From: Salinibacterium sp.
GTDB lineage: Bacteria > Actinomycetota > Actinomycetes > Actinomycetales > Microbacteriaceae
Length of the DNA: 64,000 nucleotides
Assembly: GCA_015234465.1 (NCBI GenBank)
Contig: JADGNA010000023.1
Coordinates: 186,001 to 250,000 of the forward strand
Direction of reading: 5' to 3'
Positions 24,168 to 40,073 of this stretch are shown piece after piece. A model generated the notes under the pieces. That model ran no database searches, was not told the DNA's origin, and saw nothing but the letters and a program-made list of their open reading frames with translations. Within the stretch, counting starts at the first letter, position 1. Each line of letters starts with the position of its first letter. The translations under genes and the position numbers were made by a program.

Positions 24168-25880
24168 CTAGATCCCGGGGATCTGCAGGTTCTCGTGCTG
24201 TGACAGGTGCGTGCGAAGAGCGGCCGGCCCGTCGAACGTGTATACGTCGATATCCGAGATTGTGAGATCGTCAGCCTCCAGAGTCGATCGTCCAAGCAAC
24301 AACGTGATGGTCTGAATCTCGTCAATATCGCAGTCCGAAAAACCGGGAAGTGACAGAAGCAGAAGGTTGTCGGCCTCGCCAACAACGCGTGGATAGTTGC
24401 GGAGGCAGGCCTTCTGCCCATCGCTAATCTCCACGCGCGACACGACGCTCGTAGACGCAGTGAGCTGGACGGCGAACTGGGGAGGCCAACCGTCGTCGCT
24501 GGCGAGGCTAATGCCCTCCGCGAGGACTAGGCCGATGCGCGCTTGATTCGTGCGGTACGTCCCGTCGTTCTTAGGATCATCTGGTTCGAGCTTGGAAATC
24601 GCGAACGTCGAATCTTCTTCATTCCATTGAAGATTACTGTCGGACTGGACGCTGTAGCCGAAGTCCACACGCTGGGGGAGCGTTGCCGCCTGCACGGCTT
24701 GTTCGGGGGCTACGAGAGTGCGGTCCGCTCCCTGCTCATGCGACCAAATGTCGCAGGTCGTCGCTGAGAGGTCTAGCTCCGTCTGAACATCAAGGAACGA
24801 TTCCTCGAGCGTGGGCGGGTGGCTGGGAAGGACGTATACTTCCGTCGCTGAGCCATCGGTGCACTCAAGCTCAACCTGATACAGGTCTCTTAGGTAAGGG
24901 TGTGGGCCCGCTACCTGAGTGAATATCAATCGCGAGTTTCCAGCATCGGACGTGCCGGAAATGGGGTAGCCGCCCGCGATGGCCGACTGCCTCTCTTCGA
25001 TAGCGTCGAGGTATCGACGGTCGCCGATAAGGCGGGCAAGTGACTCGAAAAGGGAGATCTCAAACACCACGTAATGCGGAGGGTCGATGGTGCGCTCGTG
25101 GAGCATGTACGCGAACCAGTTCCCATCGACGTACTCGGGCAATTTTTCGACAGTCGAGATCGAGCACTTCACGAACAGATCGGCAAGCTCATCGTCGCCG
25201 GTGCTGGCAGCGATGATTCCCATGGCTGCCAATGCATACTGGTGGCCGTTCAGCACGAAGGACTCATCTTCGTACGACATTCCGTGCCATGCGTACTCGG
25301 AGATCCAGCATTCGTCGTTCTCGTACCAGATGGATCCGCCATCAACCACGGACTTGCGGGCATGCGCGATGAGTTCGTCGGCGAGGCCTGCGTACTCGTC
25401 CGACCCCGTTTCCTGCGCTAATGCAGTGAGAAGAAGGGGAAACGTCCAGTCGGACATGCCGGACCACCAACCGGGGTCCAGCGCGTTCCCGTTGATCTTG
25501 TAAGCAAAGCCGTACGAAGCTCGCTGCCCCTTGCCCCGGATGTCCCAGCGTTCAAGCATGCGTTCGGTTCGTTCTTGTGCAGTCTTGGTGTCGCCGTTGC
25601 GAAACCAGGACGCAAGAACCGCGGCCACCGCGTACGTCGCGTGGCCCTCGTCGAGACGGGCCTCGAACTCGTCCGCGAGCCCCTGCTCACTCGGTGCAAT
25701 CTTGAGGATCGGCTGGAAGAGATCGGGCTCCGCCTCAACAGCCTCGAGCACGTCGGGGAGTTCTAGGATGCCCGTCGAGGGGTCGGGCGCCCAGTCTGGA
25801 ATCCTGGGGATGTTCGGAGTGCATCCGGCAAGGAGCGCGGCAACACCCAGCGTTGCGATCGCAGCGGTGAATCTCCGCAT
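24168..25880 (-). CDS. Lipoprotein with a D-glucuronyl C5-epimerase-like domain
   Basis: 570 residues. The signal peptide ends in a lipobox LLAGC (Cys20). Residues about 80-330 are alpha-helical and carry SDWTFPLLLTALAQ (about 143-156), SIWYENDECWISEYAW (183-198) and FVLNGHQYALAAMG (208-221). This matches the EYP...FVLNG signature of the D-glucuronyl C5-epimerase C-terminal domain, including the Glu-Tyr pair. About 240 further residues are beta-rich and unrecognised. Predicted to sit outside the membrane and possibly epimerise uronic acids in an exported glycan (inference). Minus-strand neighbours downstream make a nucleotide uronic acid. A TACTTT/AGGAGA region precedes the start. Confidence 0.7.
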   Translation of the reverse strand: MRRFTAAIATLGVAALLAGCTPNIPRIPDWAPDPSTGILELPDVLEAVEAEPDLFQPILKIAPSEQGLADEFEARLDEGHATYAVAAVLASWFRNGDTKTAQERTERMLERWDIRGKGQRASYGFAYKINGNALDPGWWSGMSDWTFPLLLTALAQETGSDEYAGLADELIAHARKSVVDGGSIWYENDECWISEYAWHGMSYEDESFVLNGHQYALAAMGIIAASTGDDELADLFVKCSISTVEKLPEYVDGNWFAYMLHERTIDPPHYVVFEISLFESLARLIGDRRYLDAIEERQSAIAGGYPISGTSDAGNSRLIFTQVAGPHPYLRDLYQVELECTDGSATEVYVLPSHPPTLEESFLDVQTELDLSATTCDIWSHEQGADRTLVAPEQAVQAATLPQRVDFGYSVQSDSNLQWNEEDSTFAISKLEPDDPKNDGTYRTNQARIGLVLAEGISLASDDGWPPQFAVQLTASTSVVSRVEISDGQKACLRNYPRVVGEADNLLLLSLPGFSDCDIDEIQTITLLLGRSTLEADDLTISDIDVYTFDGPAALRTHLSQHENLQIPGI

Positions 25881-26008: not shown

Positions 26009-27061
26009 ATGCGTATCTTGAGCGTGGTAGGTGCTCGCCCCCAGTTCGTCAAACTAGCACCGATCGACAAGGCGCTTCAGTCGAGGGCTGAACACGTCAT
26101 CGTTCATACCGGGCAGCATTACGACGAACTCATGTCTGACGTGTTCTTCCGGGACCTCGGGATTTCAGCGCCGGACGTGAACCTTGAGGTAGGTTCCGGC
26201 AAGCACGGCGAGCAGACCGGCGCGATGCTGTCAAAGCTCGAACCGGTTTTCGAGGAGTATGCGCCCGATTGGGTGCTCGTGTACGGAGACACGAACTCAA
26301 CAGTCGCTGCCGCGCTCGCCGCAGTGAAGCTTCATCTACCGCTGGCGCACCTTGAAGCGGGACTGCGTTCCTTCAACCGCCGGATGCCGGAAGAGCACAA
26401 CCGAGTGCTCACAGACCACGCGGCGGACCTGCTCCTCGCACCCACCGAGGTGGCACTGTCACATCTTGCCAATGAAGGGCTCGCCCATCGGAGCGTGCTC
26501 GTGGGCGACGTCATGACGGATGTCCTCTACCGGATTCGGGACGAGAGCCAGTCCGACCCCATCCCGCTTAAGGACGTCGCTCCAGGCGGATATTTCGTAA
26601 GCACTCTGCACCGTCCCGACAACACAGACGATCCCGACCGCCTTCGCGCGATCATCCGCGGTCTAGCGGCACTCAGCAATCCCGTCATCCTCTTGGCTCA
26701 CCCGAGGCTCGTTGCAAGAGCGCGCGAAGCTGGAGTTGAACTCGAGAGCGGCGCTATCCGGGTTGTGGATCCGCTTCCGTATCCGCAGCTCGTCCGAGCA
26801 GTGGCTTCGAGTGCCGGCGTGATCACTGATTCCGGGGGACTCCAGAAAGAAGCCTTCCTGCTACGGGTGCCGTGCACCACCATCAGGCCTGAGACGGAGT
26901 GGGTGGAGACCGTTGATCTCGGATGGAACGTGCTGGTGAACTCCGGCTTCGACGATCTCGCGCGGGCAGTCCAACGCGCCGCCCCCGCGGCAACGGACGC
27001 CGCACCGTACGGCGACGGCCACGCGGCTCGTCGCGTAGCAGACGCACTGCTCAAGGAGTGA
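26009..27061 (+). CDS. wecB: Non-hydrolysing UDP-HexNAc 2-epimerase (WecB/WbpI family)
   Basis: A 350-residue GT-B-like epimerase. The N-terminus reads ILSVVGARPQFVKLAPI, followed by VHTGQHYDELMSDVFF, VYGDTNSTVAAALAA, HLEAGLRSFNRRMPEEHNRVLTDH, the STLHRPDNTDD segment and TDSGGLQKEAFLL. It interconverts UDP-GlcNAc and UDP-ManNAc, or in WbpI the corresponding 2,3-diacetamido uronic acids. Beside a dehydrogenase/oxidoreductase/aminotransferase set the WbpI role is as likely as WecB. It is followed 13 nt later by a polymerase gene. Confidence 0.88.
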   Translation: MRILSVVGARPQFVKLAPIDKALQSRAEHVIVHTGQHYDELMSDVFFRDLGISAPDVNLEVGSGKHGEQTGAMLSKLEPVFEEYAPDWVLVYGDTNSTVAAALAAVKLHLPLAHLEAGLRSFNRRMPEEHNRVLTDHAADLLLAPTEVALSHLANEGLAHRSVLVGDVMTDVLYRIRDESQSDPIPLKDVAPGGYFVSTLHRPDNTDDPDRLRAIIRGLAALSNPVILLAHPRLVARAREAGVELESGAIRVVDPLPYPQLVRAVASSAGVITDSGGLQKEAFLLRVPCTTIRPETEWVETVDLGWNVLVNSGFDDLARAVQRAAPAATDAAPYGDGHAARRVADALLKE

Positions 27062-27074
27062 CAGCCTGGACGCC

Positions 27075-28478
27075 ATGAGAGCGACGACTTCGATGGCGGT
27101 CGCCCTCAATGACGCCCAGAGCCCGCGAGTGCCGGGTTCCATCGTCGCGGCTGGATTCGCTGGTGTGGCACTATACGCGTGGGTTCTGCATTGGATCTAT
27201 TCCAGTCTCATCGTCCCTGCGTTCGGCTATATCGGGTACACCTATGCACCGCCAGACGCGGTCCTCCTCACGATCGCGTGGTTGCTGGCATCTATCAACG
27301 CGGTCCTCCTCAAGCCCACCATGGCGAGGCCGTCCTCGATTCTGATCACCGTTCTGTTCGTTGTGGTGGTCGGTCCGGCGATCCTGATGGCACCCTACTT
27401 CGGCCGCCTTGACAACGCAGGTGCCTTCACCCTGCTATTCGGGGTGCATCTCGCGTTCGCGCTGGTCACGGTAGGCGTTCGCCAACGTCGCGCGATAAGG
27501 CCATTGCCTCTCCGAATCTCGAGCCAGTGGTTTTGGCGCGGCCTGGTCGCATTCTCCACGATCACTTACGGCTATCTAGCGGTGACCGCGGGGCTCAGTA
27601 TCGAACTCCGCGGAATACTCGAGGTCTACGACGTGCGTGCCGAGTACTCGGCTGCGCTTGCGGGAGCTCCAGGCCTCGGCTATTTCGTCGGAGCGCAATC
27701 CAATGCCGTAAATCCGTTCGTGATCGCGTGGGGACTTGCTCGCCGCCGCTGGTCGGTCGCACTTCTCGCGGTGACCGGCCAGCTGGTGCTGTACTCCGTC
27801 ACCGGATTCAAGACGGTGCTGTTCTCGTTGGCAGCGCTAGCGCTTGTGTACATCCTTCTGCGCCGGCGCGATGGATCCCCGCTCCTCTTGCTGTACGGCG
27901 CTGCGGCCATGACTATGGTGACGGCCACGATCGATATCGTGCAGAATCAAGCGTTCTGGTCGTCGTTTCTGGTCCGACGTTTCATCATCACCCCGGCCCA
28001 ACTGACTACGATCTACTACGAGTTCTACTCGGGCCGGCCCAAGGAGCAACTGGCACACTCGACACTAGAGGGGTTCGTGACGTCCCCCTACCCAGCCGGC
28101 CCGTCAAAGACCATTTCAGCATACGAAGGTTTTCCGGACGCGTCGATGAATGCGAACCTCTTCGCTGACGGTTACGCGCAATTCGGCTGGGTCGGCGTGC
28201 TCGGTGCTGCAGGGCTCCTAATACTCTTCCTCCGAATGGTCGACCGCGCTTCAGTCGGACTGCCGCCCATAATTCCAGCCCTTGTGATGGTGATGCCTGC
28301 CGTCACACTCTCCAACGCATCAATTCTGACCTCCATGCTGACGCACGGTTTGTTTGCCGTCTTCATGCTGCTGGCGCTGGCTCCGAGAGAGTTGGAGCGG
28401 CAGGACCAAGCAGGGCTCGCTTCGCCGGTGAAAGCGTCTAGTTCCCGGCATCCGCTCTTCTCGAAGCGCGTACCGTGA
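27075..28478 (+). CDS. Wzy-like polysaccharide polymerase
   Basis: 467 residues with ten or more hydrophobic segments. There is little conserved sequence, but a periplasmic loop with ...EFYSGRPKEQLAHS and the stretch MNANLFADGYAQFGWVGVLGAAG are typical of Wzy polymerases in Gram-positive and O-antigen loci. It probably polymerises the repeat unit flipped by the convergent wzx. A short cytoplasmic tail (ERQDQAGLASPVKASSSRHP) ends it. Its last 41 nt overlap the 3' end of wzx. Confidence 0.75.
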   Translation: MRATTSMAVALNDAQSPRVPGSIVAAGFAGVALYAWVLHWIYSSLIVPAFGYIGYTYAPPDAVLLTIAWLLASINAVLLKPTMARPSSILITVLFVVVVGPAILMAPYFGRLDNAGAFTLLFGVHLAFALVTVGVRQRRAIRPLPLRISSQWFWRGLVAFSTITYGYLAVTAGLSIELRGILEVYDVRAEYSAALAGAPGLGYFVGAQSNAVNPFVIAWGLARRRWSVALLAVTGQLVLYSVTGFKTVLFSLAALALVYILLRRRDGSPLLLLYGAAAMTMVTATIDIVQNQAFWSSFLVRRFIITPAQLTTIYYEFYSGRPKEQLAHSTLEGFVTSPYPAGPSKTISAYEGFPDASMNANLFADGYAQFGWVGVLGAAGLLILFLRMVDRASVGLPPIIPALVMVMPAVTLSNASILTSMLTHGLFAVFMLLALAPRELERQDQAGLASPVKASSSRHPLFSKRVP

Positions 28479-29733
28479 GAGCGAAGAGCGCCGAATAGGC
28501 AACCACCTGAACGGCCGCGAGCAAGAGCGCGCAGAGCATGAAGTCCGTGCCGAGCGCAGCCGAGACAATCACCACCCCGGTCATCGCGACCAGCCTGCAC
28601 GCGTCCCAAGCGAGTTGCGTGCCTTGACGCCCCAGGATCACCAGCGCCCGCGACACTGGCGAGACTACGAGTTGCGCATAGTATCCAACGACGAGCGCCT
28701 GCGCGTAGACACCAGCGTCAGCCCACTCTGTTCCGAACACAAACGAGAACAGAGGTGGTGCAAAGATCAAGATCACGACGGTGGGAATGGCCCCGACAAG
28801 CGCAAGAGTCTTGCTGAGTCTGAGAACTATGGCGCGCAACCCTCCCTGCTCCTGCCGGCGACGCAGCGCAAAGGTTCCCTCGAAGTACTGACTTACAGCA
28901 TCCGAAACAATACTTACGGGCGAAGCCAGCACGCGAAGGGTCAACGCGTACAGGCCAGCCTCCGGAGAGCCGAACAAGGCGACGATCAAGATAACCGGCA
29001 GCTGGAGTCCCAGCGAGTTCAGGAGCCTTGACCAAGTGTTCACCAAAGGGAACTTGCGGTACTCAGAAGCGGTGCGAAGGATGCCCGGCGACGACTCCTC
29101 GGCATGTCTCCTCGACCAAGGCAGCATCCCCAGGACCGCGGCCAGTCGCCCCACGCCAATGCTGGAAATCAATCCGAGCGGTGTGAGCCCGAAGATGCCC
29201 AGGGTGATGCTCGAGATAGTCTGGCTGACTCCCACCGTCGCGTTACGTAGGGCGAGGCGGCCATACTTCTGCTGGCGCACTAGGGACGACGAGGCAACCG
29301 TATACAGCCCAATGGTGGCGGCAGTGGCCGGGATGAGCCACCAGAAGTCGGTGAAGACTGAGGAATTGAACATCGCTTGAAGCAAGTCCTGAGCCAAGTA
29401 CGCGACTAAGCCCAGCACCGCAGAGATCGCTGCGACGGAGATCAGTCCGAGCTGGACGATGGTTCGAGCCTGCGCATCGCTCCGCGGAACGACTACCGCT
29501 CGCTCCCAGCTGAGTGTGATGACGCTGCCCACTACAGAGGAGACCGCAGTCACCACAGCGAGAGCGGCGAAATCGGAGGGGCTGTAGAGACGCGTGAGGG
29601 CTGGCGAAGAGAGGATTACGGTTCCTTGACCGACCAAGCTGCCGAGGAGGATCTTCGAAACGGACCCGCGGGACAATCTCTTGAGGAACGACGGCCGGGA
29701 GGGTGCTGGGCCCAGCGCATCGACTTCAGTCAC
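28438..29733 (-). CDS. Wzx-type oligosaccharide flippase (MOP superfamily)
   Basis: A 431-residue polytopic protein with twelve or more TM segments. The N-terminal half has the family's ILLGSLVGQGTVILSSPALTRLYSPSDFAALAVVTAV, i.e. P-x-L-T-R-L-Y-x-P-x-D-F. It would translocate undecaprenyl-PP repeat units. ATG 29733 overlaps the upstream glycosyltransferase stop by 4 nt (ATGA). Confidence 0.87.
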   Translation of the reverse strand: MTEVDALGPAPSRPSFLKRLSRGSVSKILLGSLVGQGTVILSSPALTRLYSPSDFAALAVVTAVSSVVGSVITLSWERAVVVPRSDAQARTIVQLGLISVAAISAVLGLVAYLAQDLLQAMFNSSVFTDFWWLIPATAATIGLYTVASSSLVRQQKYGRLALRNATVGVSQTISSITLGIFGLTPLGLISSIGVGRLAAVLGMLPWSRRHAEESSPGILRTASEYRKFPLVNTWSRLLNSLGLQLPVILIVALFGSPEAGLYALTLRVLASPVSIVSDAVSQYFEGTFALRRRQEQGGLRAIVLRLSKTLALVGAIPTVVILIFAPPLFSFVFGTEWADAGVYAQALVVGYYAQLVVSPVSRALVILGRQGTQLAWDACRLVAMTGVVIVSAALGTDFMLCALLLAAVQVVAYSALFALTVRASRRADAGN

Positions 29734-30851
29734 TCTTTTCTCGCACTTTCATATGCGGCTGCGAGTACTGGCACTTCTTGTGACCAGTTGAGCACTTCGA
29801 CGGCGGCTCTTCGGGCGTTGGCCGCATGCCGCTCGAGGAGCTCGGGATCGTGGGCGTACTTTGCTATGGCAGCGGCGATCGACGACGGCGACGACTCGTC
29901 GACAAGGAGTCCACATTCCAGACGATCAATGATCGACCTCCACAGCGGGAAGTCGGAAGCTATGACAGGAATCCCTGCGGCGAAGTACTCGAACATCTTG
30001 GTAGGCAGAGCGTCGCGGTGAGCCTGGGTGTCCCGAAACAGAACCAGGCCGACGCGTGCTCGTAGCAGGAGATCGCGCGCTTCGTCTGGAGTGACGTGAC
30101 CCAAATAGTCTGTTCGCTCCCACCCGGGGGAGCGCTGAAGCCTCTCCGCCAGCGATTCACCCATTGGCCCAGCGAGCTCGAGGCGCCAGCCCACAGGGAA
30201 CGCTTCATTTCCCAAGGCGTCGATCATCTGTTCGGCGCCGCGAATCTCACTGATGCCGCCGATGTACGCGACGGACAGGGGCCGAGATGCCACGGAGCCC
30301 GCCGAACCCTCCTCTTCTCTGAGAGGAGGGTAGTTGTGTACGACCGAGACCCGGCCGCTTGGGAAACGCTTCGCGATCGTCTCGGTCGCGGTGACGACAT
30401 GATTACTCAATCGCGCGACCCGCACGACCAGGTGCGCGGTGGCTCGCATGAGTGGGCGTGCAAGGGGGTGCACGTACTCTTTGCTGACCACCTGCTCAGG
30501 AAGGTCTTCGTGAGCGTCATAGATGACTCGTTTCCCCATGGCTCTGAGGACAGGAATCGCCCAAACCAGTTCGGGATCGTGCAGGTGGAACACCGAGGCT
30601 CCAGTCCGGATGGCAGCTCTTACTGCTGCGATGGATCCGAGAAGCATGCGTTGCAGGCGGGGGCGGCGCGGCAACACAGTCACGTCCACTGGGCTTGGGC
30701 CTCCGGTGATGCGGCTCTCCACCGCAACCAGCGAGACGCGGTACCCGAGTCCCGCGAGGCTCACACACTCACGGTAGTGGATCCGATTGTCGGTCCAGGG
30801 GTGTACCGAACTCACGTGAACGACGTGAATGGGCTCGGTGTGCTCAAGCAT
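29730..30851 (-). CDS. GT4 glycosyltransferase
   Basis: A 373-residue GT-B enzyme. It starts with HVVHVSSVHPWTDNRIHYREC and has VFHLHDPELVWAIPVLR, VIYDAHEDLPEQV and the donor site LPTKMFEYFAAGIPVIASDFP. The D-P-E-L...D-A-H-E-D pattern is common in glycosyltransferases of capsular and O-antigen clusters. Translationally coupled to wzx. GAGGAA lies about 10 nt before ATG 30851. The upstream 173 nt to the next, divergent GT are gene-free. Confidence 0.86.
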   Translation of the reverse strand: MLEHTEPIHVVHVSSVHPWTDNRIHYRECVSLAGLGYRVSLVAVESRITGGPSPVDVTVLPRRPRLQRMLLGSIAAVRAAIRTGASVFHLHDPELVWAIPVLRAMGKRVIYDAHEDLPEQVVSKEYVHPLARPLMRATAHLVVRVARLSNHVVTATETIAKRFPSGRVSVVHNYPPLREEEGSAGSVASRPLSVAYIGGISEIRGAEQMIDALGNEAFPVGWRLELAGPMGESLAERLQRSPGWERTDYLGHVTPDEARDLLLRARVGLVLFRDTQAHRDALPTKMFEYFAAGIPVIASDFPLWRSIIDRLECGLLVDESSPSSIAAAIAKYAHDPELLERHAANARRAAVEVLNWSQEVPVLAAAYESARKE

Positions 30852-31024: not shown

Positions 31025-32203
31025 GTGAAGAGAACAGTGCTGATCGTGGCACATCAGTACTGGCCCGAGCCCGGACCTGCAAGTCAGCGCTTGGGTGCCC
31101 TCGCGAAGGCGCTCATGGACGCGGGCTGGGGCGTCGACGTAGTCACCTCGTCACCAGCTCAGACTCCAGGTCTCGCGGCGTCGACAGGACCGCATGGAGA
31201 GCGCATCCGTCACTCTCCGAAGTCCGACGCGAAAGGTGCGAGCCCCCGCCGTGCATTCGAGTTGCTGCGCTTCGCACTCGCCGTCGTGCGGTTGTCGAAG
31301 GGGCGCACGTATTCGGCCGTGGTCACAGACCCGCCACCCACTGCGGCCTGGGCGGCTTCCCGGGTTGCACGCAACACCTCAGCCGACTTCGTCTACTTCC
31401 TCTGCGACACTTGGAGTGGTGCCACGAAGGACTCGTCCTCCATGCTGTCGAAACTCGCTCACGGACCCGTGAAATGGCTCGAGGACCGCCTCCTCGCCAA
31501 TTCGCGGCTCACCGTCGCCGTGACGGAAGGGCTTCGTGAGATAGCGGCGGACGCTGGCGCGGACAATATCCTTCTCGCACCGAACGGTGCGGATCTTTCG
31601 ATCTACACACGGGAAGGCGAACAGTGGTCATCGGCTGCCGTTCCGCGTCCATACTTCCTCTACGCCGGAAACGCGGGAGTTCTCCAAGGCGCAGAAGTCT
31701 TCGTTGATGCCGCTGAACTGCTCTGGTCTGAGGGGCGCGATTTCGGTCTGGTGTTCATGGGCTCGGGTGCCGATATGGCTCATATTCGAGAGCGTGTCGC
31801 GCCCCATAAAGGCCGACTGGTGGTGCTCGAACCGCAGCCGGTCGCTGTCGTTGCCGCAGCGCTGAGAGGCGCTGCTGCGTCTCTCGTATCACTGCGCCCG
31901 TATCCGTCGTCGGTTCATGCCCGCCCGACTAAGGCCATGGTCGCGCTGTCCGCGGGGTGTCCTATTGTCTACGCGGGAGAGGGGTCGTTCGCCGCCGAAC
32001 TCGCCGCTGCTGATGTTGGCTTCGTCAGCGATTGGTCCACGGATGGGGTTCGCAAGTCCATGGCTGCAGCGCTGGAGCTGGATGAAGGACCGGGGGACCA
32101 GCGCGATCGTCACCGCGAGGCTGCTGCGATGTATGCAAGAGCCACGTTCGACCAGATGGCGCAGGCAAGGAATATCGCTACGGCGATAGTACAACTCCGC
32201 TAG
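31025..32203 (+). CDS. GT4 glycosyltransferase, WbuB type
   Basis: 392 residues. The opening VLIVAHQYWPEPGPASQRLGALAKAL is the N-terminal fingerprint of WbuB-like transferases, several of which add an N-acetylated 6-deoxy-hexosamine. Further motifs are DPPPTAAWAASRVA, ADFVYFLCDTW and YAGNAGVLQGAEVFVDAAELL. The usual donor-site E-x7-E is degenerate (RPTKAMVALSAGCPIVYAGEG). GTG 31025 has GAGAGG 9-10 nt upstream. A related gene sits at 46886. Confidence 0.83.
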   Translation: MKRTVLIVAHQYWPEPGPASQRLGALAKALMDAGWGVDVVTSSPAQTPGLAASTGPHGERIRHSPKSDAKGASPRRAFELLRFALAVVRLSKGRTYSAVVTDPPPTAAWAASRVARNTSADFVYFLCDTWSGATKDSSSMLSKLAHGPVKWLEDRLLANSRLTVAVTEGLREIAADAGADNILLAPNGADLSIYTREGEQWSSAAVPRPYFLYAGNAGVLQGAEVFVDAAELLWSEGRDFGLVFMGSGADMAHIRERVAPHKGRLVVLEPQPVAVVAAALRGAAASLVSLRPYPSSVHARPTKAMVALSAGCPIVYAGEGSFAAELAAADVGFVSDWSTDGVRKSMAAALELDEGPGDQRDRHREAAAMYARATFDQMAQARNIATAIVQLR

Positions 32204-32238: not shown

Positions 32239-34266
32239 CTAGTTTCCGCGGCTCAGGGTTGCCCTGACGTGCTGGTGGACGACGACCTGCTGTGATTCGG
32301 CCCACTCAGATCGCTGCTGCTGGCCGAACCACATCAGCTCCACGCGCCTCACCGGACCCGCAAGGCGTGGCCAGACGCGACTCACGGCGAAACCAGACGC
32401 GACGGCGGCTCGACACAGCCAAACGGGCAATCTCATCGGGGACTTGCCGCCGGCGAGTTCGAGGGCCTCAGCCGCGGAAAGGCCCTCCCACGGCTGGAGC
32501 ACGATATTCGGCACGCGAGTTGAATGCGCTCCGACTTCAGCAGTGAACTCAGCGAGCGACGTTACGGAGCTCACTACGGTGGGCCCAGCGCCCGTGCCGG
32601 CCACTGACGCGATTGGTGACGCAGCGAGCCGCTGCAGCCTCGCGGTGGTCGCTCGGCCCGGTCCTTGCACAGACGTTGCTCGCAGAATGATGATCTCAGG
32701 GAGCGCTCCTTCGTTGCCGGAGGCAAGCGCGAGCAAGGCCGACTCGCCAAGAGCCTTGGACAGTGCGTAGGGCGACTCGGGTGCGGTCTCGGACGATTCA
32801 TCGAGCACGCGTCGTCGCCCCTGAACCGCTGCCGAACTCAGATGGACCATTCGCTTCGTGCCGCCACGGGCGGCTGCATACGCGATAAGCGCTGGTAGTA
32901 AAGCGTTCGCGCCGAGGAGTGCTTCGCCCCCCGCGGAATCAGGGGTTGCGAGCCCAGCGGCATTGACCACCACGTCCGCCCCCTTCATGGCAGCCACGAG
33001 GACTCCGACGTGTTCCCCGCCCGACTTTGCAGCTGCAAGGACACCCTCCGCCGAAGCGTGTGCTGCCTCCAGCTCCACACGGGGCGCGGGCACTGCTACC
33101 ACCTCGATCCCGCGCTTGCGAAGCTCTGTGACTATCGCGCTGCCCACAAACCCGGAAGCACCAATCACTGCCCAGTGCCTGGCGTGGGATGACCGTGCTG
33201 CGGTGAGGGACGGGACCAGCGAGCTTGCAGGGACGGCTGAAGGCGCAACGCTTACTCGACCTGGTGCAATCTCGTCCTTCGATCTGCGAGCAAGCAGCTT
33301 CGGCAAGGAGAGGTAGGCAGCGCAGATCAGAAACACGCAGACGACGGCGCCCGCTTGCAGGTGCCCTGGCCCGTCCTGTGTGGCGAGCCCGATACCGGCA
33401 CAGGCTACAGTCGCAGCGGTGACGATGAGCGCGGAACCTACGTGCGAGAACCCGACGTCCGTGAGTCGCTGATAGACGTGGGCCCGATGAGCTTCGTGCC
33501 ACACCTCCCCCTTGAGAACGCGCCGCGCCAGAGTGAAGGACGTGTCCGCCAAGTAGATCGCAAGGGGAGCGACGGCTGCTACGGGCGAAAGCCCGGCGGC
33601 TACAGCGGCGCACGCGATGCCCGCGATGCCGGCGCCGAGCAGGTAGCTCCCGACGTCGCCGAGAAACACCTTCCCGCCGAAGATATTGAACGGCAGGAAC
33701 CCGGCGAAGGCTGCGGCGAGCACGAGCCCAGACCCGATGAGCCAATCGGTGTCGCTTATGACCCCCACGGCGGCGAATGACGCACCGACCGTCAAACCGT
33801 GCAGGCCGGAGATGCCGTTGACGCCGTCCATGAAGTTTGCGGCGTTGATGTAGCCCGCTATCGCCACCGCGAATAGGGGAACAATCCAAGGAGACGTGCC
33901 CGTCAGTGCTGTAAGGCATATCGCTGCTGCTACTCCCAGCAGCAATTGTGTGAGAGCCCGTATCTTCACCCCGAGCCCCCGGGCATCCTCGATCCACCCG
34001 AGCACTCCTGCCGCGATCGCCAAGGAGGCCACGGTGGCAACGATTGCAGCGCTCTGGTCGGGAGCCTCCGAAATCAAGTACGCGGTCGCGGCAACAGCTA
34101 TGGCTACGAGCGGTGCCAAACCTCCGCCTCGCACCACAGGCGTCGTGTGTGAAGACCGAGCGTTGGGGACATCGATGATCCCCATACGGGTGAGGACTGG
34201 GCGCAGCGCGGCGGTGCAGAGGAGCCCTAGAGCGAAAGCGAGAACTGAGAGAGCGACAGGCGACAT
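32239..34266 (-). CDS. Fusion: polyprenyl-phosphate glycosyl-1-phosphate transferase (WecA/WbpL type) plus SDR sugar reductase
   Basis: 675 residues. Residues 1-330 are a multi-TM MraY/WecA-type transferase with N-x-x-NFMDGVNG (141-150), FLGDVGSYLLG (201-211) and HEAHRAHVYQRL (257-268). A linker of about 35 residues leads to an SDR domain with GASGFVG (369-375), NAAG (435-438), HLSSAAVQG and the catalytic YALSK (500-504). In Pseudomonas-type loci these are separate proteins: WbpL starts the repeat unit, and a WbpV/WbpK-like reductase makes the UDP-6-deoxy-HexNAc it uses. Here one polypeptide should do both (inference). It starts 6 nt after the WbpM-like gene. Confidence 0.84.
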   Translation of the reverse strand: MSPVALSVLAFALGLLCTAALRPVLTRMGIIDVPNARSSHTTPVVRGGGLAPLVAIAVAATAYLISEAPDQSAAIVATVASLAIAAGVLGWIEDARGLGVKIRALTQLLLGVAAAICLTALTGTSPWIVPLFAVAIAGYINAANFMDGVNGISGLHGLTVGASFAAVGVISDTDWLIGSGLVLAAAFAGFLPFNIFGGKVFLGDVGSYLLGAGIAGIACAAVAAGLSPVAAVAPLAIYLADTSFTLARRVLKGEVWHEAHRAHVYQRLTDVGFSHVGSALIVTAATVACAGIGLATQDGPGHLQAGAVVCVFLICAAYLSLPKLLARRSKDEIAPGRVSVAPSAVPASSLVPSLTAARSSHARHWAVIGASGFVGSAIVTELRKRGIEVVAVPAPRVELEAAHASAEGVLAAAKSGGEHVGVLVAAMKGADVVVNAAGLATPDSAGGEALLGANALLPALIAYAAARGGTKRMVHLSSAAVQGRRRVLDESSETAPESPYALSKALGESALLALASGNEGALPEIIILRATSVQGPGRATTARLQRLAASPIASVAGTGAGPTVVSSVTSLAEFTAEVGAHSTRVPNIVLQPWEGLSAAEALELAGGKSPMRLPVWLCRAAVASGFAVSRVWPRLAGPVRRVELMWFGQQQRSEWAESQQVVVHQHVRATLSRGN

Positions 34267-34272
34267 TTCGAT

Positions 34273-36111
34273 CTATTCGGAAGACTGACGACAGCGCCGG
34301 AGCCACTCCGTCTTGTCGAGCCGCTCGGGCGATAGAGCTTCGACCCGCGCGTGCGAGATCTTCGGGTGACGTGGGCGAGCGTCGGACTCGGAGGACCCGA
34401 GGAGTTCCTCGTGAAGTTTCTCGCCGGGGCGCAGCCCAGTGAAGACGATGTCGATGTCCTTGCCAGACATCTCGATCATTCGCTGCGCGACATCCAAGAT
34501 CCGAACCGGTTCGCCCATGTCCAGGATGAGTACCTCGCCAGGTTCGCCGATGCCACCAGCCTGCACCACAAGCTGGCATGCTTCGGGAATCGTCATAAAG
34601 AACCTGGTCACGTCGGGGTGCGTCACCGTTAGCGGGCCACCCGCCGCGATGAGTGAGGTGAAGGTCGGCAACATCGACCCTCGGCTGCCAATCACATTGC
34701 CGAAGCGCACCGAGAGATAGCGCATTCCGGTCTCTTCGGCCGCCCAGGAGGTCAGCTTCTCAGCCACTCGCTTTGAATGGCCAAGGACGCTCGTGGGGTT
34801 GGCGGCCTTGTCGGTCGAGATATTGACGAACGTAGCTACCCCAACGCTCCGGGCGGCATCAAGGACGTTGAGTGTCCCTTGCACGTTCGTCTGCCATGCC
34901 TCGTCTGGATACTGCTCAAGCATGGGCAGGTGCTTCAAAGCTGCTGCGTGAAACACGACTTCCGGCTTGCGGTCGCCAAAGATACGCATGAGAGTGTCGC
35001 GATCTCGGATATCTGCCAGCACCACATTTCGCGTATGCAGTAGGCCGTGCCCATCGATCAGCAACTGCGAGCTTTGCAATCCGGACTCGTCGCGATCCAG
35101 CATCATGAGTTCGGCGGGAGCGTACTTCGCGATCTGCTGGGACAGTACGGAACCGATCGAGCCTCCGGCGCCTGTCACCAGCACGCGCTTCCCGGTGAGG
35201 TAGTCGGCTATCGACTCGACATCGGTATCGACAGGGTGTCGACCGATGAGGTCTTCGATCGAGACCTCTTTGAGGTCCTTGAGTGCGGAACGGCCTTCAA
35301 GGATGTCGCTGAGTAGCGGAAAGACGAGTGTGCGAAGGCCCGCCGCATCTGCCAGGTCCTTTATCTTGCGAATGAGTGCTGAGTCGGCGCGACCTATCGA
35401 GACGACCAAGGTCGTAGCTTCGGTGTCGCGGGCGATCTTCGCTAGGTCTTGCCCGGGTCCCAGCACGCTGATGCCGCCGACAGAATAGTTGCTCTTTGCT
35501 GGGCTGTCGTCGATCAGCCCCACGGGGAGATATTTTGACCGCGGGTTGGTCAACATCTGTGGGATCAGGAAGTTCGCGAGGGAACCCGCCCCGTAGACCA
35601 AGGTGTTCTCGGCTTCACTGCTCGGCTTTGACCTCTTTTCCGCGCTAAGGCGACGCAGGTAGCGCGCGGCCCCCATGAGCACAAGAGCCATCGGAAGGGC
35701 GACGAGTACGGTGCTGCGCGGGATCGTAAGAACCGTTCCGAAAAGCAGGACGGGGATGCCGATAGTGATGGCAGTTGCCACGGTCGCGACCGTGAGTGCC
35801 TGGACTTCGTGGAATGAACCGGTGCGGAATCGCCCGCGATAGAGGTTGAAGGTGCGGCCCCAGATGAACTGGAATATCACAGCGGCCACACACAGCGCGA
35901 GCATGGATGGCCACTGAACCCGAGTGAACTCAAGTTCATAGCGGAAGACAGCGGCGAAGACCAAGCCGGTGACCCACGAGGCGGAATCGAAGACGAACTG
36001 TCCGCCGACGGTCCTCCTCACTGAGGCTGCCCGAGCCCGAAGGAAGCTCTGGACGGAAGCCGAGCCAGTGTGGGAAGGGCCGCTATCGCCCTGGAGTGGA
36101 TGTTCCATCAT
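34273..36111 (-). CDS. WbpM/CapD-type membrane UDP-HexNAc 4,6-dehydratase
   Basis: 612 residues. Four TM segments (about 40-60, 70-90, 105-128, 132-150) are followed by a CoA-binding-like Rossmann fold (LVYGAGSLANFLI) and a C-terminal SDR domain: VLVTGAGGSIGS (310-321), FHAAALKHLPMLEQYP, STDKAANPTSVLGHSKR. The Tyr of Y-x-x-x-K is missing, as is normal for WbpM, which uses Met; here the residue is Leu. It makes UDP-4-keto-6-deoxy-HexNAc, the substrate for the SDR half of the neighbouring fusion. ATG 36111 or 36108; GGAG precedes both. Confidence 0.9.
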   Translation of the reverse strand: MMEHPLQGDSGPSHTGSASVQSFLRARAASVRRTVGGQFVFDSASWVTGLVFAAVFRYELEFTRVQWPSMLALCVAAVIFQFIWGRTFNLYRGRFRTGSFHEVQALTVATVATAITIGIPVLLFGTVLTIPRSTVLVALPMALVLMGAARYLRRLSAEKRSKPSSEAENTLVYGAGSLANFLIPQMLTNPRSKYLPVGLIDDSPAKSNYSVGGISVLGPGQDLAKIARDTEATTLVVSIGRADSALIRKIKDLADAAGLRTLVFPLLSDILEGRSALKDLKEVSIEDLIGRHPVDTDVESIADYLTGKRVLVTGAGGSIGSVLSQQIAKYAPAELMMLDRDESGLQSSQLLIDGHGLLHTRNVVLADIRDRDTLMRIFGDRKPEVVFHAAALKHLPMLEQYPDEAWQTNVQGTLNVLDAARSVGVATFVNISTDKAANPTSVLGHSKRVAEKLTSWAAEETGMRYLSVRFGNVIGSRGSMLPTFTSLIAAGGPLTVTHPDVTRFFMTIPEACQLVVQAGGIGEPGEVLILDMGEPVRILDVAQRMIEMSGKDIDIVFTGLRPGEKLHEELLGSSESDARPRHPKISHARVEALSPERLDKTEWLRRCRQSSE

Positions 36112-36121
36112 GACTCCGACG

Positions 36122-37390
36122 TCACCGCCGATTCTTGGTGACGCTGGCTACACCCAGGATTCTCACGCTCAGGAGTTCGAGCGACTTGAGCGTGCTCCCG
36201 ATCCTCGGTCGCTTCGTTTCTCCGACACCAACCACGACTAGGGCGGCGTCTGCGTGTCGCGCCGCTCCTGCCATCTCCGCACCGGCGTCGCCCGGCGCGC
36301 AGTCCAGCAGGACGATGTCGACCCTGGCTGCAACTTCGCTCACGAGTCGCGCAAAACGCGGCGTGCCGAGCGCGACTGCTGCCTCGGCGGGACTGCCTAC
36401 GTAGTCGAATACGAGCGGTCCCTCTGTCACCTCAGGGATGGAAGGCGCGTCGTCCTCGAGGAGGTGTCGGAGCGGGAGCCCCCCGTTACCTGCGGTCGCA
36501 TCATGGAGGCGGAAGACAGCGACACTTGTGCGTGTGGCAGTCAAGGAGTGCGCGAGGCCCGCCGTGACGAGGGTGGAGAGGGCCGGGTCGGTCGGAGTGA
36601 CGACCGCAATGATTCGCGACTCTGCAGCTGCCAGCTTGGAAGCCACCACCGTCCTCAACTGATGAAACTCCGCTGCCGCGACGCTTTCAGTCGCAACGGT
36701 GTCTTTTGGCTTTCCAGCAATTGGAAGTTCCGCGAGGATCTCATGCCCCGTTACGTCCTGGGCGTCCAGTGAGTCGCGGACGGTCGTGTTGAGATACCAC
36801 CGCAGGGTGGCAAGCACGGCTCCAACGAGCACGCCGAGAAAAGCCATGAGCACCAGTGTTTGCCTGTTGCTCGCTACGGCCTCCGTGGGCGCAATTGCTT
36901 CACTGATGATTTCGAACGAGACCTGCGTTGCGTCCGACTCGAAATTGTCGATCGACTCCTTCGCATACGAGATCAAGGCGACGGCGACTGAGTTTGCAAT
37001 CTCGGCGGCACCCTCGGGTGTGCCCCACGTGACCGTCACCTCGATGATCGGGCTGTCTGCCGCTTGGGCGACCGTGACTTGGGAAGCCAGTTCCTTGCGC
37101 GTTTCCACCTGATCCGACAACTCCACGGCCTTGCGGAGCACCGGCGCACTGGTGCCAATATTCGAGTAGATCCGGGCGCGCTGCACCGCGTAGCTGATTC
37201 CACTCACCGGGTCGCAGGCTTCAGCATTCTCAACTGCGATGCAGGCGGAGACGGAGAGGGTGCTCGTCGACTGGTAGAGGGGCTTCCGGGTTGCGGAGTA
37301 CGCCCATCCTGCGATCCCGAAGACGATCGCTGTCACGACGATGATCACCCAGCCTTCGCGTGCGATGCGAAGGAGATCCCGAGCTGTCAT
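36122..37390 (-). CDS. Wzc/CapAB-like chain-length regulator with a degenerate kinase domain
   Basis: 422 residues. TM1 (about 16-34) and TM2 (178-197) flank an extracellular Wzz-type domain; EFHQLRT (241-247) opens a MinD/BY-kinase-like domain. The P-loop position reads VVTPTDPALST (263-272), with no G-K-S/T, and the Walker A' Asp motif is absent. Walker B survives as IVLLDCAPG. No tyrosine-rich tail: the protein ends VTKNRR. It is therefore expected to regulate chain length without ATP-driven autophosphorylation (inference). First gene of the operon with WbpM-like and the fusion; GAGGG lies 5 nt before ATG 37390. Confidence 0.82.
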   Translation of the reverse strand: MTARDLLRIAREGWVIIVVTAIVFGIAGWAYSATRKPLYQSTSTLSVSACIAVENAEACDPVSGISYAVQRARIYSNIGTSAPVLRKAVELSDQVETRKELASQVTVAQAADSPIIEVTVTWGTPEGAAEIANSVAVALISYAKESIDNFESDATQVSFEIISEAIAPTEAVASNRQTLVLMAFLGVLVGAVLATLRWYLNTTVRDSLDAQDVTGHEILAELPIAGKPKDTVATESVAAAEFHQLRTVVASKLAAAESRIIAVVTPTDPALSTLVTAGLAHSLTATRTSVAVFRLHDATAGNGGLPLRHLLEDDAPSIPEVTEGPLVFDYVGSPAEAAVALGTPRFARLVSEVAARVDIVLLDCAPGDAGAEMAGAARHADAALVVVGVGETKRPRIGSTLKSLELLSVRILGVASVTKNRR

Positions 37391-37595: not shown

Positions 37596-40073
37596 ATGCC
37601 CAAGCTCCGACCGGGTGTCGTCTCCGTTGTCCTCGTCAACTTCCGTGGTCCCAGCGACACCATCGAAGCTATCGGGCATCTTGGTGAACTCGACTGGCCG
37701 CAGGAGCGGCTTGAGATTGTCGTCGTGGAGAACGGATCGGGCGACGACAGCGCAGAGCGCATCCGGGCCGCCGCGCCTCACGTGAACCTGGTCGTCTCGA
37801 AGACGAACGACGGCTTCGCCGGCGGATGCAACAGGGGAGTGGCCGCCTCCAGTGGCGAGTACATCGCCCTGCTGAACAACGATGCACGCCCGGACGAGAA
37901 GTGGGTGCGCGCCGCCGTCGAGAAGTTCGAGACATCCGACAAGATCGGTGCCGTCGCGAGCCGCGTGCTCGACTGGGAGGGCGAGAAGGTCGACTTCATC
38001 GGCTCCGCCATGACCTGGTACGGCATGGGCTACAAGCCGTTCACGGCCGAGCCGATCCCCAAGACCCCGGATGTGCCGCAGGACGTGCTCTTCGGCACCG
38101 GGTCGGCGATGTTTGTGCGCAGGGACGTCTACGACGCGCTCGGCGGCTTCGACGAGCGCTACTTCATGTTCTTCGAAGACGTCGACCTTGGCTGGCGTCT
38201 CAACCTGCGCGGGTGGCGCTATGCATACGAGCCAGCCTCCCTCGCGTACCACAAGCACCACGCGTCGATGGCGGAGTTCGGCCCCTACAAGGAGACGTAC
38301 CTCCTCGAACGCAACGCACTCTTCACCCTTTACAAGAACCTCGAAGAGGACGGCCTGCGCGAGGCGCTACCCGCCGCGACGATGCTCGCCATCCGTCGGG
38401 GCATCACGCGCGCGGGACTCGACTCCACCGCATACGACCTGCGCAAGCCCGGGGGAGACGACACCGACACCGACACCGTCTCCAAGCAGGCGGTCGCAGC
38501 GATGTTCGCGATCGACCAGCTCGTCGAGAACCTGCCGTCGCTCCGCAAGAGCCGCGACGAAATCCAGACCACGCGCACCGTCAGCGACAGCATGCTCTGG
38601 CGCCTCTTCGGGCAGGTCGATGCGCCGGTGTACCAAGAGGAGAAATACCTCGACGGATACACCGACATCGTCAGCGCCTTCAATGTGCTCGAGCCCACTG
38701 AGCGCACCAAGGTCGTGATTGTCACGGGCGACCCGATCGGCAAGAAGCTCGCAGGCCCCGCCATCCGCGCCTGGAACATGGCCGACCTCCTCTCCCGCGA
38801 CAACGACGTCTGTCTCGTCACCCTCTCCGGTGCGGAGGAGATGGAAGCTCCCTTCCGCATCGAGCACGTGCGCCCGGGCGACGACGGCAAGTTCGGGCCG
38901 CTCGAGAAGTGGGCGGATGTCATCGTCTTTCAAGGCCACGCAATGGCCGTCTTCGAGTCGATCCGCACGAGCTCCAAGATCCTCGTCGTCGACATCTACG
39001 ACCCCATGCACCTCGAACAGCTCGAGCAGGGGAGGGAGCTGCCCGCCGCCCAGTGGACGCAGCAGGTGGCGGATGCGACGGAGGTGCTCAACGAGCAGTT
39101 GCAGCGCGGGGACTTCTTCCTCTGCGCATCCGACCGGCAGAAGATGTTCTGGCTCGGCCAGCTCGCCGCACTCGGGCGCATCAACCCGCTCAATTACGAC
39201 GGTGACCCCGATCTTGATGGTCTCATCAGCATCGCTCCGTTCGGGCTCTCCGCGACGCCGCCCACGCACGAACGCGACGTGCTCAAAGGCGTCATGCCGG
39301 GCATCGGCCGTGACGACAAGGTGCTGCTGTGGAGCGGAGGCCTTTACAACTGGTTCGACCCCAAGACGTTGATCCGCGCCGTTGCCGAGCTCTCCCAGCG
39401 TCGCGATGGCGTGCGCCTCTTCTTCCAGGGCACCAAGCATCCTCACCCCGGCGTGCCCGAGATGCGCATCGTGAAGGAGTCCCGCGCGCTCGCCGAGGAG
39501 CTCGGCGCACTCGACACCTCTGTCTTTTTTAACCCCTCGTGGGTCGACTACGCCGACCGGCAGAACTACCTCACCGAGGCGGACGCCGGCGTCAGCACGC
39601 ACTTCTCGCACATCGAGACCACCTTCTCGTTCCGCACTCGCATCCTCGACTACCTCTGGGCTGAGCTGCCCATGGTCGTCACCGAGGGTGACCACTTCGC
39701 CGAACTGATCGCTGCCGAGAACCTCGGCGTCGTCGTCAAGGCAGAGGATGTCGCGGGGCTGTCGGTCGCCCTCGAGCGCGTGCTCTTCGACGAGGAGTTC
39801 ATCGCCGAAGCGAAGGCCAACATCCGCCGCGTGCGCGAGCGCTACTTCTGGGAGGCCGCCCTCGCGCCGCTCGTCGACTTCGTCGCGGACGCGAAGCACG
39901 CCGCCGATCACCGCGGCCTGACCGCCGCCCAGCTTGCCGCGGCAGCGCAAGGTCGCAAGCAGCGCCGCCGCTCCGGCCTCATGCACGACATCGGCCGTGC
40001 CGCCTTCTATCTGCGCACGGCCGGGCCCTCGGCGGTTGTGGGTAAGGTCGCGAAGCGCCTCAGGCGGCGGTGA
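37596..40073 (+). CDS. Two-domain glycosyltransferase: GT2 followed by GT-B domain
   Basis: 825 residues. The N-terminal 290 form a WbbL-like GT2: VSVVLVNFRGPSDTIEAI, VVVENGSGDDSAE, NDGFAGGCNRGV, ALLNNDARPD, FGTGSAMFVRRDVYDALGGFDERYFMFFEDVDLGWR. A linker of about 80 residues precedes a GT-B domain (VVIVTGDPIGKKLAGPAIRAWNMADLL, LLWSGGLYNWFDPKTLIRAV, THFSHIETTFSFRTRILDYLWAELPMVVTEGD). The tail is basic. Codon usage is strongly GC-rich, unlike the genes just upstream. First gene of a plus-strand run to 49.3 kb. Substrates unknown. Confidence 0.85.
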   Translation: MPKLRPGVVSVVLVNFRGPSDTIEAIGHLGELDWPQERLEIVVVENGSGDDSAERIRAAAPHVNLVVSKTNDGFAGGCNRGVAASSGEYIALLNNDARPDEKWVRAAVEKFETSDKIGAVASRVLDWEGEKVDFIGSAMTWYGMGYKPFTAEPIPKTPDVPQDVLFGTGSAMFVRRDVYDALGGFDERYFMFFEDVDLGWRLNLRGWRYAYEPASLAYHKHHASMAEFGPYKETYLLERNALFTLYKNLEEDGLREALPAATMLAIRRGITRAGLDSTAYDLRKPGGDDTDTDTVSKQAVAAMFAIDQLVENLPSLRKSRDEIQTTRTVSDSMLWRLFGQVDAPVYQEEKYLDGYTDIVSAFNVLEPTERTKVVIVTGDPIGKKLAGPAIRAWNMADLLSRDNDVCLVTLSGAEEMEAPFRIEHVRPGDDGKFGPLEKWADVIVFQGHAMAVFESIRTSSKILVVDIYDPMHLEQLEQGRELPAAQWTQQVADATEVLNEQLQRGDFFLCASDRQKMFWLGQLAALGRINPLNYDGDPDLDGLISIAPFGLSATPPTHERDVLKGVMPGIGRDDKVLLWSGGLYNWFDPKTLIRAVAELSQRRDGVRLFFQGTKHPHPGVPEMRIVKESRALAEELGALDTSVFFNPSWVDYADRQNYLTEADAGVSTHFSHIETTFSFRTRILDYLWAELPMVVTEGDHFAELIAAENLGVVVKAEDVAGLSVALERVLFDEEFIAEAKANIRRVRERYFWEAALAPLVDFVADAKHAADHRGLTAAQLAAAAQGRKQRRRSGLMHDIGRAAFYLRTAGPSAVVGKVAKRLRRR

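Follow-up and report, generated by a model that had tools for sequence, protein, structure and literature searches.

Why would a membrane enzyme that loads the first sugar of a surface polysaccharide be joined to a sugar reductase in one polypeptide? The question is raised by a gene in a 64,000-nucleotide stretch of a Salinibacterium sp. contig (JADGNA010000023.1, positions 186,001 to 250,000; hereafter the window). On the minus strand, at 32239..34266, a single open reading frame of 675 unbroken codons encodes a polytopic sugar-1-phosphate transferase followed by an extended short-chain dehydrogenase/reductase (SDR). In this gene, a soil-type actinobacterium has combined the enzyme that loads the first sugar with a reductase that probably finishes that same sugar. 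We place at about 0.75 the probability that the product is a bifunctional initiating phosphoglycosyl transferase (PGT) yielding N-acetyl-D-fucosamine (D-FucNAc) or N-acetyl-D-quinovosamine (D-QuiNAc) linked to undecaprenyl diphosphate (Und-PP), a reading that rests on sequence comparison. The C4 stereochemistry, and hence the choice between D-FucNAc and D-QuiNAc, cannot be told from sequence.

In the pathway that we propose, a neighboring WbpM-type enzyme would convert UDP-N-acetylglucosamine (UDP-GlcNAc) to UDP-2-acetamido-2,6-dideoxy-D-xylo-hexos-4-ulose, and the fusion would carry out both next steps at the inner membrane face. The WecA-like half would transfer the sugar-1-phosphate to undecaprenyl phosphate, and the tethered cytosolic SDR half would reduce the C4 ketone with NADPH. 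The resulting Und-PP-D-FucNAc or Und-PP-D-QuiNAc would supply the first sugar of a Wzx/Wzy-type polysaccharide. The sequence itself establishes one polypeptide with intact signature residues in both domains, a dehydratase partner, and an SDR half on the cytosolic side; from these features we infer the sugar and the lipid that accepts it, as well as the reduction and its cofactor.

One frame encodes a transferase and an SDR

The whole genome yields this frame as well, and Pfam assigns Glycos_transf_4 (PF00953) to residues 79-219 (2e-23) and Epimerase (PF01370) to residues 366-556 (3e-20). This bears out an earlier note on this DNA, which had described both enzymes in one 675-codon frame; all the motifs that it quoted (NFMDGVNG, GDVGSY, HRAHVYQRL, GASGFVG, and YALSK) are present. 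Its location stands as forward-strand coordinates, with the minus strand left unstated.

The transferase half (residues 1-333; 33268..34266, minus strand) was delimited by PF00953, AlphaFold2, Foldseek, and loop analysis. In the AlphaFold2 model of the full fusion (mean predicted local distance difference test [pLDDT] score of 79), these residues are of high confidence and form 11 membrane helices, and Foldseek matches them to MraY and DPAGT1. Both the PF00953 match and the polytopic fold place this half among the polytopic PGTs of the WecA/MraY superfamily. Its score against the WecA equivalog TIGR02380 is 71 bits versus a cutoff of 326, and Pfam found no match in the fused protein to PF02397, the catalytic domain of monotopic PGTs. 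The catalytic-type segments ED, NFMDG, GDVGSY, and HRAHVYQRL lie on or near odd-numbered, cytoplasmic loops, and the chain leaves helix 11 on the same side as these loops; because the model has 11 helices, the SDR half should be cytosolic. At the “DD” motif of the superfamily, the first catalytic Asp is Glu in the window protein (GWIEDARG; Glu93-Asp94, 33985..33990, minus strand). Most fused and unfused actinobacterial relatives share this Glu; therefore, ED is probably a family trait rather than a defect.

The SDR half (residues 362-675; 32239..33183, minus strand), delimited by PF01370, alignment A2, and Foldseek, forms a Rossmann fold from residue 362 onward in the full-fusion model and matches nucleotide-sugar SDRs. 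It carries the hallmarks of extended SDRs: the GxxGxxG cofactor motif (GASGFVG, residues 369-375), a catalytic Ser478 (SSAAVQG), and the YxxxK pair Tyr500 and Lys504, all intact and conserved over the subfamily. The sequence gives no sign of the loss of cofactor binding that the earlier note named as a danger to its proposal, and a dead SDR half is ruled out, since the catalytic residues are kept in all fused copies. Arg396, located after strand beta2, is invariant in alignment A2, with no acidic residue at that spot, which fits NADPH and suggests it as the cofactor. NADPH is also the cofactor of the characterized 4-reductases Preq (PMC4514872) and CapN (PMC6441080).

Single-frame fusions occur in seven genomes belonging to three family-level groups. 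Besides the window, they are found in Cryobacterium luteum (L003), G037 (L051), G084, and G242 of the window's own genus, and in G549 and G622, which belong to two further families of that order; none was found on plasmids or phages. The homologue search suggested at the outset has thus yielded six further proteins that keep both halves, and these exclude the sequencing error or frameshift near codons 330-365 that had been feared. The fusion is real and not a sequencing artifact. Overall identity among the seven proteins is 42-55%, and all motifs are retained in them. Compared with the window, the halves of the homologues are 40-56% identical, and the linker (residues 334-361; 33184..33267, minus strand) is only 4-26% identical; its pLDDT falls below 50 for residues 333-359.

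The fusion and its dehydratase neighbor likely share a pathway

The gene upstream (34273..36111, minus strand) ends 6 nucleotides before the fusion and encodes a 612-residue, PseB/FnlA-like protein. Its PF02719 match (2.8e-103), PF13727 match (4e-07) for the N-terminal membrane/CoA-binding-like part, and active site (STDKAANPTSVLGHSK) identify it as the WbpM-type UDP-GlcNAc 4,6-dehydratase that had been proposed at this position. wbpM adjoins the transferase gene in nearly all related loci, often with a 4-nucleotide overlap, and lies beside the fusion in 6 of the 7 fused genomes; in G549 it is about 8.4 kb away.

Unfused relatives carry the same components as neighbors. The SDR subfamily gene is separate and adjacent to the WbpM-transferase pair in L054, L055, and L119. 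In L020, L117, L118, and L120-L122, it belongs to the same operon with a single gene intervening, and in Arthrobacter it is divergently oriented on the opposite strand, about 3 kb from the pair. In G006 (L056) and C. suzukii (L004), a separate WbpV-type SDR, 44-45% identical to the SDR at the WbpV position in Pseudomonas aeruginosa, begins at the transferase stop codon. Given these unfused neighbors and the WbpV-type proteins in the SDR slot, the shared pathway put forward earlier for transferase, SDR, and dehydratase is likely.

In trees of both halves, the fused forms group close together; the transferase of C. suzukii falls among them (support of 94/83). A single origin of the fusion is neither rejected nor shown by the approximately unbiased test (P = 0.37 for the SDR half and 0.06 for the transferase half). 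L055 may represent a fission, and L004 may represent a replacement.

The SDR half belongs to a separate subfamily

The earlier note had equated the SDR half with WbpV/WbpK, an assignment that does not hold. Identity to P. aeruginosa WbpV is 27% over 272 columns of a partial stretch, and the WbpV signature segments (SSIKVNGE..., the NRRS loop, and the C-terminal SLQVD) are absent. Members of the window's subfamily, which bear the C-terminal signature RRxELMWFGQxQ, score 335-437 bits against its profile, compared with 66 bits for Gnu and 60-92 bits for WbpV-type proteins. By profile and BLAST, membership in either the WbpV/WbpK or the Gnu group is ruled out. On these sequence criteria, the SDR half is a separate subfamily filling the slot held elsewhere by WbpV-type proteins.

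Several observations weigh against a bifunctional enzyme that makes D-FucNAc or D-QuiNAc. All 16 of the 16 genomes with an SDR-less WbpM-transferase pair carry no member of the SDR subfamily, so the transferase can do without it. No FnlA-type gene was found in the window genome, and its next sugar would therefore differ from that of some fused relatives. The solved relatives of the subfamily are distant and mostly epimerases and dehydratases, the C-terminal substrate lobe is poorly defined when AlphaFold models the SDR half by itself, and we know of no characterized member.

Order of reduction and transfer

Describing the SDR as making the substrate of the transferase, as was done at first, presumes that reduction precedes transfer; the pairing itself stands, and it fits a reduction that takes place on the lipid carrier no less well. 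The WecA-like half could instead load the 4-keto sugar of WbpM directly, leaving the tethered SDR to reduce the Und-PP-linked 4-keto sugar. We consider this version of the bifunctional enzyme to have close to an even chance. The SDR subfamily is missing from every one of the 16 tested genomes whose WbpM-transferase locus carries no SDR. In one of them, G005 (1.4 Mb, 100% complete), the PF01370 matches are limited to GalE, WbpM, and classical SDRs, and a true DegT aminotransferase is lacking; given no dedicated extended-SDR reductase or DegT, its transferase plausibly takes the WbpM product unchanged, although such genomes could have an unrecognized reductase. GalE, Gnu, WbpV-type, and Fcl SDRs share an Arg/Lys in the diphosphate-facing loop that the window's subfamily does not conserve, and this too favors a lipid-linked substrate; a different invariant Arg may, however, stand in for it. 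Rhizobium etli WreQ reportedly reduces the keto sugar much more quickly when it is lipid-linked than when it is UDP-linked; the R. etli transferase belongs to the unrelated monotopic class, which counts against the analogy. A precedent for an SDR acting on an Und-PP sugar is Gnu, which epimerizes Und-PP-GlcNAc (PMC3682973). Against this order, CapN and CapM of Staphylococcus aureus work in the opposite sequence in vitro, CapN as a reductase of the UDP-linked sugar and CapM as a transferase for UDP-D-FucNAc (PMC6441080).

Alternatively, the SDR half may first make UDP-D-FucNAc or UDP-D-QuiNAc for the fused transferase, with the fusion raising the local level of a scarce donor. We hold this order only tentatively, as somewhat short of an even chance. 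Separate proteins provide precedents in Pdeg/Preq (PMC4514872) and CapD/CapN/CapM (PMC6441080), and the Km of CapM for UDP-D-FucNAc is about 2.3 mM (PMC6441080), so that tethering the maker of the donor could pay. Reduction before transfer leaves the sister transferases that lack this reductase unexplained, and the flexible, unconserved linker speaks against a built tunnel.

The same linker bears on the idea that the fusion channels a labile 4-keto sugar product of the SDR to the lipid step, which finds no support here. The 4-keto sugar is the product of the dehydratase and the substrate of the SDR, so the proposal of its channeling to the lipid step contradicts itself, except where the transferase takes the keto sugar as such. 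As the linker is modeled with low confidence and is unconserved, the halves are tethered at most.

In a bolder form of the transfer-first order, the polytopic PGT would load a 4-keto sugar and complete it on the carrier by means of its own tethered reductase, and reductase-less sister lineages would start a surface glycan with the unreduced 4-keto sugar. We regard this as doubtful, perhaps a one-in-three prospect in spirit rather than the expected outcome. The WbpM-transferase lineages concerned include some Microbacteriaceae with the pair in a ribosomal gene region.

A different reaction altogether is improbable: that the SDR half is a Gnu- or GalE-like 4-epimerase interconverting gluco and galacto forms on UDP or Und-PP. 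UDP-sugar 4-epimerases are among its closest solved relatives by sequence, and Gnu (66 bits) and WbpV-type proteins (60-92 bits) score alike against the subfamily profile. Yet the invariant Arg with no acidic residue at the end of beta2 is of the NADPH type, the SDR co-occurs with WbpM, which a GlcNAc epimerase would not need, and WbpV-type proteins replace it at the same slot. Finally, that the fusion is an annotation or sequencing artifact, or that an internal start gives rise to a separate SDR protein, is scarcely credible: an in-frame GTG does occur at residue 367 of the window protein, but initiation there would cut into the first Rossmann strand, the linkers of L003, L051, and L114 contain no in-frame ATG, GTG, or TTG, and six other genomes keep the one frame.

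Comparison with known systems

The bifunctional PGT that we favor has separate counterparts in P. aeruginosa, where WbpM, WbpV, and WbpL likewise comprise a 4,6-dehydratase, a C4 reductase, and a polytopic transferase expected to start with D-FucNAc or D-QuiNAc, encoded by adjacent genes. WbpV is a proposed UDP-QuiNAc 4-reductase (PMC3726653). The P. aeruginosa locus on pHOU1-1 reads fnlA-like, fnlB-like, wecB, glycosyltransferase, SDR, GT4, and wbpM; since this is the order reported for wbpV-wbpL (PMC3726653), its SDR was taken as WbpV. In contrast to the window, the three P. aeruginosa genes are separate (PMC3726653), the SDR is of a different subfamily, and the window transferase has ED instead of DD. 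S. aureus CapD, CapN, and CapM similarly provide a dehydratase, an NADPH-dependent 4-reductase, and a transferase making Und-PP-D-FucNAc (PMC6441080), but as separate proteins, and CapM is monotopic.

Gnu, an Und-PP-GlcNAc 4-epimerase, offers a parallel to the proposed enzyme as an SDR whose substrate is lipid-linked and comes from a WecA-type enzyme (PMC3682973); it differs in being an epimerase, a separate protein, and distant from the subfamily (66 bits). MraY, WecA, and DPAGT1 share the fold and catalytic loops of the N-terminal half but are described without an extra domain such as the attached SDR. In the monotopic superfamily, PGTs bearing further functional domains are known; polytopic PGTs are tabulated as “PGT only” (Table 1 of PMC10942596). 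We found no published polytopic PGT-SDR fusion in the literature searched, a result that is no proof of absence, as most subscription papers lay outside its scope.

The idea of an SDR-PGT fusion is not new, as analogues exist with unrelated monotopic transferases. A Deinococcus ficus plasmid (L176:3986-5554) encodes a “hybrid nucleoside-diphosphate sugar epimerase/sugar transferase” in which a WbpV-type SDR, about 50% identical to WbpV, is joined to a monotopic PF02397 transferase. Like the window protein, it combines an initiating transferase with a sugar SDR as a single polypeptide; unlike it, the transferase is of an unrelated superfamily, the SDR comes first, and the SDR subfamily is different. 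The two fusions are convergent.

Gene neighborhood and other observations

A chain-length (Wzz/CapA-type) gene (36122..37390, minus strand; TIGR01006, 6.7e-16) ends 10 nucleotides upstream of the dehydratase gene; with the dehydratase and the fusion it forms an apparent three-gene operon, of which it is likely the first gene. Convergent with the fusion is a glycosyltransferase gene (31025..32203, plus strand; PF13579/PF13439), followed outward by a family 4 glycosyltransferase (29730..30851, minus strand; PF00534), a Wzx-like polysaccharide flippase (28438..29733, minus strand; PF13440), and the UDP-GlcNAc 2-epimerase WecB (26009..27061, plus strand; above the cutoff of TIGR00236). Positions 37596-40073 encode a second fused glycan enzyme of the cluster, an 825-residue protein with a GT2 domain and then a GT-B (Glyco_trans_1_4) domain, and positions 24168-25880 encode a lipoprotein-like protein of 570 residues with a C-terminal D-glucuronyl C5-epimerase domain (PF06662), also within the polysaccharide cluster.

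The active site of the actinobacterial WbpM (34273-36111 in the window and more than 50 homologues) has the pattern STDKA..P...LG.(S/T)K; a single matched gene departs from the Leu. Characterized enzymes have Met (WbpM/PglF) or Tyr (PseB) at that position. In G037 (L051), two WbpM genes, each 63-64% identical to that of the window, lie about 2.2 kb apart, and the second precedes the fusion.

In three Microbacteriaceae loci (L059, L061, and L063), an SDR-less wbpM-transferase pair is found in the ribosomal region, flanked by tuf and the genes of the S10 operon. For glycan genes, such a housekeeping location is unusual. In L010, L017, and L058 (Arthrobacter and G225), the pair lies beside ATP synthase genes; the atp genes come close behind the transferase in L010, and L058 has an additional second, WecA-like gene. 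Mycobacterial wecA (Rv1302) also lies beside ATP synthase genes. Among the database records, a contig filed as “Vibrio cholerae strain 35D” (L021) bears an Arthrobacter-like locus in the same gene order and is probably contamination, and a 4.94-Mb Aeromonas caviae record filed as a plasmid (L135; NZ_AP026896.1) is, to judge by its size, probably a wrongly filed chromosome.

Implications

A natural fusion with a sugar reductase breaks the single-domain description of polytopic PGTs and would tie the completion of a nucleotide sugar to lipid loading. It also makes it possible to ask, with a single protein, whether 6-deoxy-amino sugars reach their final form before or after being loaded onto undecaprenyl phosphate. 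The parallel fusion in Deinococcus suggests that the joining of both steps has been favored at least twice.
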